The position numbers were made by a program, and so were the translations under genes. Below are positions 42,848 through 45,922 of a stretch of 64,000 nt of DNA, one piece after another. The first letter of the stretch is position 1; the number at the start of each line of letters is the position of its first letter. The stretch is taken from positions 1 to 64,000 of the forward strand of contig NZ_JADPJL010000068.1 of assembly GCF_023073415.1 (NCBI RefSeq), given 5' to 3'. Source of the DNA: Bradyrhizobium sp. 190 (GTDB lineage Bacteria; Pseudomonadota; Alphaproteobacteria; Rhizobiales; Xanthobacteraceae). Below the pieces are notes generated by a model. The model was not told where the DNA came from, made no database searches, and was given only the letters and a program-made list of their open reading frames with translations.

Positions 42848-45800
42848 ATGCCGAAATCAGCCCCCAAAGCCGCCGCGAAACCCGCTCCCGCCGCCAAAGC
42901 CCCTGCCAAGGCGCCCGCCAAACAACCAGGCAAGGGCGACCATGTGTTCCTGGTCGACGGTTCCTCCTACATTTTCCGCGCCTATCACGCGCTGCCGCCG
43001 CTGAACCGCAAATCGGACGGGCTGCAGGTCAATGCGGTGCTCGGCTTCTGCAACATGTTGTGGAAGCTGTTGCGCGACATGCCGGAGGATAACCGGCCGA
43101 CGCATCTGGCGATCATCTTCGATAAATCCGAGATCACGTTCCGCAACAAGCTCTATCCCGACTACAAGGCGCACCGGCCGCCGGCGCCGGATGATCTAAT
43201 TCCTCAGTTCGCGCTGATCCGCGAAGCGGTGCGTGCGTTCGACCTGCCCTGCCTCGAGCAAGTCGGCTTCGAGGCCGACGATCTGATCGCGACCTATGTC
43301 CGCATCGCCTGCGAGCGCGGAGCTTCCGCCACCATCGTGTCCTCGGACAAGGACCTGATGCAGCTCGTGACCGATTGCGTCACCATGTACGACACCATGA
43401 AGGATCGCCGGATCGGTATTCCCGAAGTGATCGAGAAGTTCGGCGTGCCGCCGGAGAAGGTTGTCGAGGTGCAGGCGCTGGCCGGCGACTCCACCGACAA
43501 CGTGCCCGGCGTGCCCGGTATCGGCGTCAAGACCGCCGCGCAATTGATCATCGAGTATGGCGATCTGGAACAACTGTTGTTCCGCGCCGGCGAGATCAAG
43601 CAGCCGAAGCGGCGCGAGGCCCTGATCGAGAACGCCGAAAAGGCACGAATTTCGCGACAACTGGTGCTGCTCGACGACAAGGTCGATCTCGAAGTGCCGC
43701 TCGATGACCTCGCCGTGCACGAGCCGGATGCACGAAAGCTGATCGCGTTCCTGAAAGCGATGGAATTCTCCACCCTCACCCGCCGCGTGGCCGAATATTC
43801 GCAAGTAGACCCGGCCGATGTGGAGGCTGATGCGGGCAACAAGAGCGGCGCGAGCGTTTTCGCAGTGCCGCCATCCGGCAAGAAGCCGGAGGGCTATTCC
43901 GAGGGCGCGACACTGTTCGATGCCCCCGGCTCCGCCGCCGCCGCGCCCTCGGGTAAGGGAGGGACCGCACCGGCCAAAGGCGCCGACAAGCAGGACAAGG
44001 CCGCGAGCCCCAAGGGAGCGCCGATCTCGCTCGCCGCCGCCCGCGCCGAAGCTGCCCGAAAACTGCCGGTCGACCGCAGCAAGTATCAGACCATCCGCAA
44101 CCTGGATGAACTCAAAGCGTGGATCGCGCGCGCCTACGACGCCGGCACGTTCGCGATCGACGCCAAATCGAATTCCGACGATCCGATGCAGGCCGACATT
44201 TGCGGCGTTGCGCTGGCGCTGGCGCCGAACGACGCCTGCTACGTGCCGCTCGCCCACCGGCAGTCCGGCGACGGCGCGGGCCTGTTTGACGCCGGCCTCG
44301 CGCCCGACCAGATCAAGGCCGGCGACGCGCTGGCGGCGCTGAAGCCGCTGCTGGAATCATCAGGCGTTCTCAAGATCGGCTTCAACATCAAGTTCAACGC
44401 CGTGATGCTGGCGCAGCACGGCATTACGTTACGCAATACCGACGATGCGCAATTGATGTCGTACGCGCTCGACGCCGGACGCAACTCGCATGCGCTGGAT
44501 ACGCTGGCCGAACTTTGGTTTGGTCATGCCGTGATCGGCGAAAGCGAGCTGATCGGCAGCGGCAAGAACAAGCTCACCTTCGATCAGGTCGCGATCGACA
44601 GGGCGACCGCCCATTCGGCCGAAAGTGCCGACGTGATCCTGCGGCTGCATCGTGTGCTCAAACCACGCCTCATCGCCGAGCACATGACGACGGTCTACGA
44701 GACCCTGGAGCGGCCGCTGGTCAGCGTGCTGGCGCGAATGGAGCGGCGCGGCATCTCGATCGACCGTCAAGTGCTGTCGCGGCTGTCGGGCGAGTTCGCC
44801 CAGACTGCGGCCCGCGTCGAGGCCGAGCTTCAGGAGATCGCGGGCGAGCCGATCAATGTCGGCAGCCCCAAGCAGATCGGCGACATCATCTTCGGCAAGA
44901 TGGGAATAACCGGCGGCACCAAGACCAAGACCGGCGCGTGGTCGACCTCGGCGCAGATCCTCGACGAGCTCGCCGAACAGGGGCACGAGTTTCCGAAGAA
45001 GATCCTCGAATGGCGGCAGGTGTCGAAGCTGAAATCGACCTACACCGACGCGCTGCCGGAATATGTCCATCCGCAGACCCACCGCGTCCACACGACCTAC
45101 GCGCTGGCCGCAACCACCACGGGACGGCTGTCGTCGAACGAGCCGAACCTGCAGAACATCCCGGTTCGCACCGAGGACGGCCGAAAAATCCGCCGCGCCT
45201 TTATCGCGACGCCCGGCCACAAGCTGGTGTCGGCGGACTATTCGCAGATCGAATTGCGGCTATTGGCCGAGATCGCCGACATCCCCGTGCTGAAGCAGGC
45301 ATTCCGCGACGGGCTCGACATTCACGCCATGACGGCGTCCGAAATGTTCGGCGTGCCGATCAAGGACATGCCGGGCGAGGTGCGTCGCCGCGCGAAGGCG
45401 ATCAATTTCGGCATCATCTACGGCATCTCGGCTTTCGGGTTGGCGAACCAGCTCGGCATCGCCCGCGAGGAAGCCTCCGCCTACATCAAGAAGTATTTCG
45501 AGCGCTTTCCGGGCATCCGCGCCTATATGGACGAGACCAAGGAATCATGCCGCAAGAACGGCTATGTCACCACGCTGTTCGGCCGGAAGATGTACTACCC
45601 CGACATCAAGGCCTCCAACGCGTCGGTCCGCGCTTTCAACGAGCGCGCGTCGATCAATGCGCGCCTGCAAGGCACCGCCGCCGACATCATCCGCCGCGCC
45701 ATGATCCGAATGGAAGACGCGCTGGCGGCGAAGAAACTCTCGGCGCAGATGCTCTTGCAGGTGCACGACGAACTGATTTTTGAAGTGCCCGACAATGAAG

Positions 45801-45922
45801 TGGCGGCGACGTTGCCGGTGGTGCAGCATGTCATGCAGGACGCACCGTTCCCGGCGGTGCTGCTGTCGCTGCCGCTGCAGGTCGACGCGCGCGCCGCCAA
45901 TAATTGGGACGAGGCGCATTAG
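42848..45922 (+). CDS. polA: DNA polymerase I with a degenerate 3'-5' exonuclease domain
   Basis: A 1024-residue Pol I. A basic Ala/Pro/Lys N-tail precedes the 5' nuclease (about 33-310; LVDGSSYIFRAYHALPPL, FEADDLIATY, SSDKDLMQLV, GDSTDNVPGVPGIGVKTA). A disordered insert lies at about 345-415. The 3'-5' exonuclease-like fold spans about 420-620 and the polymerase about 640-1024, with motif A SADYSQIELR, O-helix RRRAKAINFGIIYG and motif C QVHDELIFE. In the exonuclease only Asp438 keeps a catalytic residue: the expected Glu, Asp, Tyr and Asp are Lys440, Asn517, His589 and Ser593. Polymerase and 5' nuclease should work; proofreading should not. Confidence 0.97.
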   Translation: MPKSAPKAAAKPAPAAKAPAKAPAKQPGKGDHVFLVDGSSYIFRAYHALPPLNRKSDGLQVNAVLGFCNMLWKLLRDMPEDNRPTHLAIIFDKSEITFRNKLYPDYKAHRPPAPDDLIPQFALIREAVRAFDLPCLEQVGFEADDLIATYVRIACERGASATIVSSDKDLMQLVTDCVTMYDTMKDRRIGIPEVIEKFGVPPEKVVEVQALAGDSTDNVPGVPGIGVKTAAQLIIEYGDLEQLLFRAGEIKQPKRREALIENAEKARISRQLVLLDDKVDLEVPLDDLAVHEPDARKLIAFLKAMEFSTLTRRVAEYSQVDPADVEADAGNKSGASVFAVPPSGKKPEGYSEGATLFDAPGSAAAAPSGKGGTAPAKGADKQDKAASPKGAPISLAAARAEAARKLPVDRSKYQTIRNLDELKAWIARAYDAGTFAIDAKSNSDDPMQADICGVALALAPNDACYVPLAHRQSGDGAGLFDAGLAPDQIKAGDALAALKPLLESSGVLKIGFNIKFNAVMLAQHGITLRNTDDAQLMSYALDAGRNSHALDTLAELWFGHAVIGESELIGSGKNKLTFDQVAIDRATAHSAESADVILRLHRVLKPRLIAEHMTTVYETLERPLVSVLARMERRGISIDRQVLSRLSGEFAQTAARVEAELQEIAGEPINVGSPKQIGDIIFGKMGITGGTKTKTGAWSTSAQILDELAEQGHEFPKKILEWRQVSKLKSTYTDALPEYVHPQTHRVHTTYALAATTTGRLSSNEPNLQNIPVRTEDGRKIRRAFIATPGHKLVSADYSQIELRLLAEIADIPVLKQAFRDGLDIHAMTASEMFGVPIKDMPGEVRRRAKAINFGIIYGISAFGLANQLGIAREEASAYIKKYFERFPGIRAYMDETKESCRKNGYVTTLFGRKMYYPDIKASNASVRAFNERASINARLQGTAADIIRRAMIRMEDALAAKKLSAQMLLQVHDELIFEVPDNEVAATLPVVQHVMQDAPFPAVLLSLPLQVDARAANNWDEAH

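Follow-up and report, generated by a model that had tools for sequence, protein, structure and literature searches.

The polA locus of Bradyrhizobium sp. 190

The window (the whole stretch of DNA analysed, 64,000 nucleotides from Bradyrhizobium sp. 190) carries a polA gene encoding a DNA polymerase I (Table 1), the sole PF00476 polymerase of its 8.6 Mb Bradyrhizobium genome. The nearest named relatives of that genome are Bradyrhizobium, the PolA of B. algeriense being 95.6% identical. PF02739, PF01367, PF01612 and PF00476 all match above their cut-offs in one chain, the domain set of a PolA1 enzyme. At the positions checked by alignment, which we take to be the catalytic ones, the window protein has the residues of E. 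coli at 14 of 14 polymerase sites and 9 of 9 sites in the 5' nuclease.

The exonuclease domain between these two activities retains its fold. It scores 63.3 bits against PF01612 (cut-off 23.6), though it falls just under the cut-off of the narrower model PF22619 (25.1 versus 27). An AlphaFold2 model of residues 407-1024, built from 40 aligned rows (pLDDT 87.9, pTM 0.87), aligns along its full length with the Klenow fragment (1kfd; Z 38.6, rmsd 3.5, 549 aligned residues, 48% identity).

Table 1 Features of the polA gene in the window; residues of E. coli Pol I are given for comparison.
Feature	Position	Strand	Evidence
polA, DNA polymerase I, 1024 aa	42848..45922	+	Open reading frame; NF004397 (1161 bits) and TIGR00593 (900 bits), both above cut-off
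5'-3' nuclease (flap endonuclease) domain, residues 33-295	42944..43732	+	PF02739 and PF01367; metal-ligand residues intact
Predicted vestigial 3'-5' exonuclease domain, residues 413-608	44084..44671	+	PF01612 (63.3 bits) and AlphaFold2 model
Asp438, equivalent to Asp355, sole acid of four retained	44159..44161 (GAC)	+	phmmer/MAFFT alignments
Lys440, replacing Glu357	44165..44167 (AAA)	+	phmmer/MAFFT alignments
Asp444, replacing Leu361	44177..44179	+	Alignment with E. coli polA
Asn517, replacing Asp424	44396..44398 (AAC)	+	phmmer/MAFFT alignments
His589, replacing Tyr497	44612..44614 (CAT)	+	phmmer/MAFFT alignments
Ser593, replacing Asp501	44624..44626 (AGT)	+	phmmer/MAFFT alignments
Polymerase domain, residues 641-1022, catalytic residues intact	44768..45913	+	PF00476 (514.9 bits)

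Substitutions in the proofreading site

Residues were mapped by a phmmer alignment to Klenow and by MAFFT alignments that included E. coli K-12 polA. The DEDDy site reads DKNHS in the window protein versus DEDYD in E. coli Pol I, and thus departs from a proofreading site at four of the five positions. With its metal ligands substituted in a retained fold, the protein has the profile of a non-proofreading PolA1. Our alignments reproduced the residue numbers, coordinates and motif strings of a first-pass annotation of this DNA, and they also agreed with its account of a preserved exonuclease fold flanked by intact polymerase and 5' nuclease motifs. One further change in motif I, Leu361 to Asp444, was absent from that annotation, and E592 is retained. 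Because the site residues are replaced in a fold that is kept, and because the Pol I of Helicobacter pylori lacks proofreading, 3'-5' proofreading by the window protein has almost certainly been lost. This judgement, drawn from alignment, a structural model and analogy, is in line with the earlier prediction that the activity is gone and the domain retained.

Extent of the loss among relatives

Five positions were read in each PolA, and a site was called lost when at least one of the four DEDDy acids was missing. The order is Hyphomicrobiales (Rhizobiales in GTDB) and the family of the window is Xanthobacteraceae (GTDB). Among the sequences read, Bradyrhizobium has uniformly lost the site: the other six genomes of the genus that were read all lack it, with differing residues, as do 22 of 22 named Bradyrhizobium among the matches listed. 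Across the family, at least one acid is missing from 38 of 61 genomes (an even draw, all read). From the order, 199 genomes were drawn evenly, and 142 of them, mostly the stronger matches, were read (the other 57 being mainly weaker or fragmentary); 27 of these 142 had lost the site, in 7 of the 38 families read, and losses occur in six families of Hyphomicrobiales besides that of the window.

Among the 80 named matches listed, 45 are lost and one (L188) is unscorable. Nitrobacter winogradskyi, Rhodopseudomonas infernalis and one Tardiphaga belong to the lost set, though the other of the two records bearing the name Rhodopseudomonas (L176) keeps the site. Mesorhizobium has lost the site in 10 of 12 cases by two routes, one giving DEDYQ or DEDYH and the other DRDHD, and the site is kept in Brucella (3/3) and in Kaistia, Ancylobacter, Labrenzia, Roseibium and Phyllobacterium (2/2 each), again among the matches listed. 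Two records in our set are peculiar. The polA match of L118 (G010:C214:14361-17291) comes in two pieces with an internal TAG and the site SKHHD, and may be broken or mis-assembled; in L166, titled Frankia sp. RB7, the polA is of Bradyrhizobium type (81.5% identity with that of the window), so that the record name or assembly looks wrong.

Beyond the order, all 27 loci read from other orders of the class are intact, these being best matches to the window protein and hence biased towards similarity. In the phylum outside the order, 77 of 78 genomes keep the four acids (71 DEDYD, 6 DEEYD) and one has lost an acid; these genomes were picked by Ku status and handle, independently of PolA, and two are shared with the 27-locus set. 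The variant DEEYD, a conservative one with Glu for Asp as third acid, occurs in all six genomes read of families f189 and f194 (L366, L368, L370, L375, L379 and L383). The sole lost site, VEEYD, belongs to a Ku-positive genome outside the class (L374, G543).

Number of independent losses

Trees were built with FastTree throughout; the gene tree was used in place of a species tree, and certain rows share one genome (for example L090 and L187, whose contigs have the same length). The full set, to which E. coli belongs, comprised 307 PolA rows: the site is intact in 199 and lost in 107, and L188 was set aside. When regain was forbidden, the tree of these rows built without the exonuclease columns required 29 losses, and 24, 23 or 22 after collapsing branches with support below 80, 90 or 95; the same 307 rows contain 26 maximal lost clades. 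Parsimony with regain allowed needed 14 changes for an initial set of 147 rows and 16 for the 199 genomes scored for Ku. When the tree was instead built from the exonuclease domain with the catalytic columns taken out, 22 losses were required, or 17, 16 and 15 after weakly supported branches were collapsed. In that tree the intact sequences L015 and L016 cluster with other intact sequences, a placement that may reflect faster change in lost clades or be a sign of recombination, and regain by recombination in these two would lower the loss count.

Provided that regain is rare, there have been at least 15 independent losses in the order. The mapping of aligned PolA sequences onto a tree, which the first-pass annotation had proposed, thus gave a divided answer: Bradyrhizobium is uniform in its loss, and the family and the order do not share a single state. 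The same annotation had expected a clade-wide loss to date the event. Our trees instead place at least 15 losses across family and order, and since there is no single event, the loss cannot date one.

Constraint on the lost domains

Sister pairs were compared with our own Nei-Gojobori code, after excluding pairs that were short of codons or had hardly diverged and setting five mixed pairs apart. The ratio of nonsynonymous change in the exonuclease domain to that in the polymerase domain was higher in the 25 lost pairs (median 3.19), which are not all separate losses, than in the 58 intact ones (median 1.81; Mann-Whitney p 3.3e-7), with overlapping ranges (0.95-4.27 intact, 1.44-15.29 lost). 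Exonuclease dN/dS in the lost pairs was nevertheless 0.10-0.54. In thinned sets (111 intact and 31 lost rows), the conservation seen in the intact rows is released in the lost ones at 17 positions: the four acids, T356, L361, Q419, N420, Y423, L368, S372, T442, 457, M458, D459, I471 and T505. Presumably L361, Q419, N420 and Y423 contact the bound 3' end. The released set does not include Y497, and 27 positions, including K422, D441 and D503, remain conserved at 0.9 or more in the lost rows of the thinned sets. The lost domains thus change faster yet stay under purifying selection, and look like scaffold rather than enzyme, as judged from substitution patterns.

Other DNA-repair genes

If the loss were made good in trans by a stand-alone DEDDy exonuclease, an additional PF01612 match would be expected in lost genomes. 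None was gained among the 61 family genomes searched with PF01612, since 58 have exactly three matches (G009 and G060 have four and G003 two), and we rejected this replacement. Those listed are PolA, a frame of ~400 codons and one of ~210 codons, which we take to be RNase D-like and NrnC-like, respectively, and the same types accompany both PolA states. We infer that the proofreading of Pol III and mismatch repair cover for Pol I.

DnaE2 was likewise rejected as a correlate of loss, being too common to discriminate (158 of 199 order genomes at E <= 1e-250, 157 of them above cut-off). Median genome size is 4.9 Mb in lost versus 4.4 Mb in intact genomes and adds little beside Ku. Photolyase, taken as a control trait, showed an inverse association in the raw table of the order draw (15/27 lost, 95/115 intact, p 0.0045; p 0.035 outside the family of the window), which was gone on the tree (p 0.22 and 0.15; 0.40 and 0.094 in a further tree test). 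Of the seven genus genomes searched, four, that of the window among them, have no photolyase (PF00875) match.

Association with Ku

Both traits were scored in 199 genomes of the order, 65 from the family of the window and 134 others. Ku is present in 55 of 62 lost genomes versus 59 of 137 intact ones (raw Fisher p 5e-10, uncorrected for kinship). The window genome itself has three Ku matches. One possible reading is that the loss was adaptive: if Pol I and Ku share 3' ends, an exonuclease there would be harmful or superfluous, so that a Pol I that does not chew those ends would be favoured or tolerated and losses would fall on Ku-bearing backgrounds. A model of irreversible loss with two rates fits better than one with a single rate (LR 28.9, p 7.6e-8, n=199), the loss rate without Ku being close to zero, and the same holds outside the family (n=134, LR 10.06, p 0.0015). 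Ku-positive parent branches bear 18 of 22 losses versus 36% of branch length; the figures are 5 of 8 versus 26% outside the family (p 0.034) and 14 of 14 versus 76% inside it (p 0.029). Gene order adds to this in the Nitrobacter-type loci L011, L013 and L172 (which include N. winogradskyi), where ku follows polA in the same orientation, at most ~0.8 kb downstream. The polA of these three loci has likewise lost the site and is predicted to be exonuclease-dead; in most other loci too little flank is present to place ku.

Several observations weigh against so direct a role. Independent sister pairs point in the same direction but are few and non-significant (4.2 versus 0.7, median p 0.25), the two-rate test gives p 0.28 inside the family, and seven lost genomes are without Ku. 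The raw association of photolyase, which drops out only on the tree, means that raw tables say little here; moreover, the gene tree serves as species tree, and Ku could be a proxy for life style. All four acids persist in 33 of the 34 Ku-positive genomes read outside the order. The presence of Ku thus does not suffice for loss, and as a general cause it was rejected in that sense: an acid was lost in 1 of 34 Ku-positive and 0 of 44 Ku-negative genomes. (The former are all the Ku-positives of that draw, G497 by weak fragments only; the latter were hand-picked, six being listed as negative and 38 inferred negative from their absence among the draw's 58 Ku matches.) We therefore regard adaptive loss tied to Ku end joining as doubtful, and the association, confined to the order, as a lead indicating that more than drift may be involved.

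Interpretation

We consider it likely that the window gene encodes a Pol I whose polymerase and 5' nuclease are active and whose 3'-5' exonuclease is a dead scaffold, the product of recurrent loss under weak selection. Such an enzyme would still be expected to remove RNA primers and fill repair gaps. It would not excise a mispaired 3' end, so that mismatch extension and read-through of small lesions would come more easily than to E. coli Pol I, and correction would be left to the replicase proofreader and to mismatch repair. Because selection on Pol I proofreading would be weak, the site could be lost many separate times in the order, probably by a first catalytic substitution followed by drift of the other acids and their neighbours, with purifying selection maintaining a fold that serves as the structural base for the remainder of the enzyme. 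Weak selection leaves unexplained why the order is a hot spot when only 1 of 78 genomes outside it has lost an acid.

The residues of the site also offer an argument for a different outcome, in which the site was rebuilt from other residues and proofreading retained. E592 survives. So does D438, a new acid (D444) lies next to the site, His589 stands at the place of the tyrosine and recalls DEDDh enzymes, and the released set leaves out Y497, four points that also count against recurrent loss as a full account. Among the 107 lost rows, however, 87 are without two or more acids (9 retain none, 54 a single one and 24 two, against 20 with three left), and lost relatives differ from one another (VKSYS, EKTLG, EKTYD, QKNHI), so that there is no conserved replacement set; we find a rebuilt site very improbable. 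An error of sequencing or assembly, or a decaying pseudogene, has practically no claim, as the frame is open over its 1024 codons, the polymerase and 5' nuclease residues are intact, purifying selection is evident, and B. algeriense and other close relatives share the lost site, which excludes it. The loss might instead have been selected for mutagenic or lesion-tolerant synthesis by an exonuclease-dead Pol I, as proposed for H. pylori, whose non-proofreading enzyme is described as extending mismatches and bypassing lesions (PMC3121766); Timinskas et al. also propose a mutagenic or lesion-tolerant role (PMC12926913). Since DnaE2 occurs in 158 of 199 order genomes, most already own a lesion-tolerant polymerase, and the drift of all four acids together with the relaxed rates resembles disuse. 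We judge this explanation unlikely.

Relation to known Pol I enzymes

Proofreading by Pol I is taught as standard. In these soil bacteria, root-nodule symbionts included, it has been repeatedly discarded alongside relatives that retain it. What lets a lineage abandon it becomes directly testable, as matched relatives (Mesorhizobium composti versus M. ciceri and M. loti; Chelativorans multitrophicus versus C. petroleitrophicus) allow its effect on mutation rate, lesion tolerance and end joining to be measured. If the proposed tie to Ku is real, the order would be a natural experiment, replicated at least 15 times, on how Pol I and bacterial end joining are functionally connected.

That non-proofreading Pol I is known in some bacteria, as the first-pass annotation stated, agrees with two papers. 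In the survey of Timinskas et al. (2026, PMC12926913), roughly half of PolA1 sequences carry substitutions at DEDDy residues, with inactivation largely specific to phyla (Firmicutes, Tenericutes and Actinobacteria). In H. pylori Pol I (HP1470), the equivalents of D355, D424 and D501 are missing, and the purified enzyme, with active polymerase and 5' nuclease, showed neither proofreading nor mismatch editing (PMC3121766). With these precedents a single case is ordinary, and it is the clustering in one order that merits following: the losses here are scattered and recurrent within that order, whereas the rest of the phylum read is mostly intact. The density of losses in one order and the Ku association limited to it are new, to judge from an open-licence literature search in which no title among those listed concerned Pol I proofreading loss in Hyphomicrobiales or its link to Ku, though the tree of PMC12926913 may already show part of the pattern. 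The titles listed likewise included no mutation-accumulation study of Bradyrhizobium.

H. pylori Pol I resembles the window protein in keeping the exonuclease domain and losing its metal-binding acids. Its loss is a separate one, in a small-genome species without translesion polymerases and with D355 lost, while the genomes of the present set are large, most with DnaE2, and the window protein has another residue set with the D355 equivalent kept. In Desulfurella and Hippea the exonuclease domain of PolA is itself partly or wholly missing (PMC6403173), unlike in the window protein, where only the site is lost. The PolA2/APEX proteins of Actinobacteria are family A polymerases with an inactivated exonuclease domain (PMC12926913). 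They lack the 5' nuclease and carry a clamp-binding QxxLF motif in the exonuclease domain. The window protein differs from these in having a 5' nuclease (PF02739, PF01367) and is thus not of that type; a clamp motif gained by the dead domain was rejected, as no Q..[LM][FL] was found in its linker and exonuclease domain, and the motif turns up in one of the 107 lost rows and in four of the 198 intact ones.

Among structural matches to the whole model, the large fragments of the Bacillus stearothermophilus and Taq polymerases rank with Klenow (Z 34.7-37.6). We take the exonuclease domains of both to be vestigial and inactive; these losses are old and common to large groups. Over the aligned stretch, the window protein is 37-41% identical to these two large fragments versus 46-48% to Klenow.
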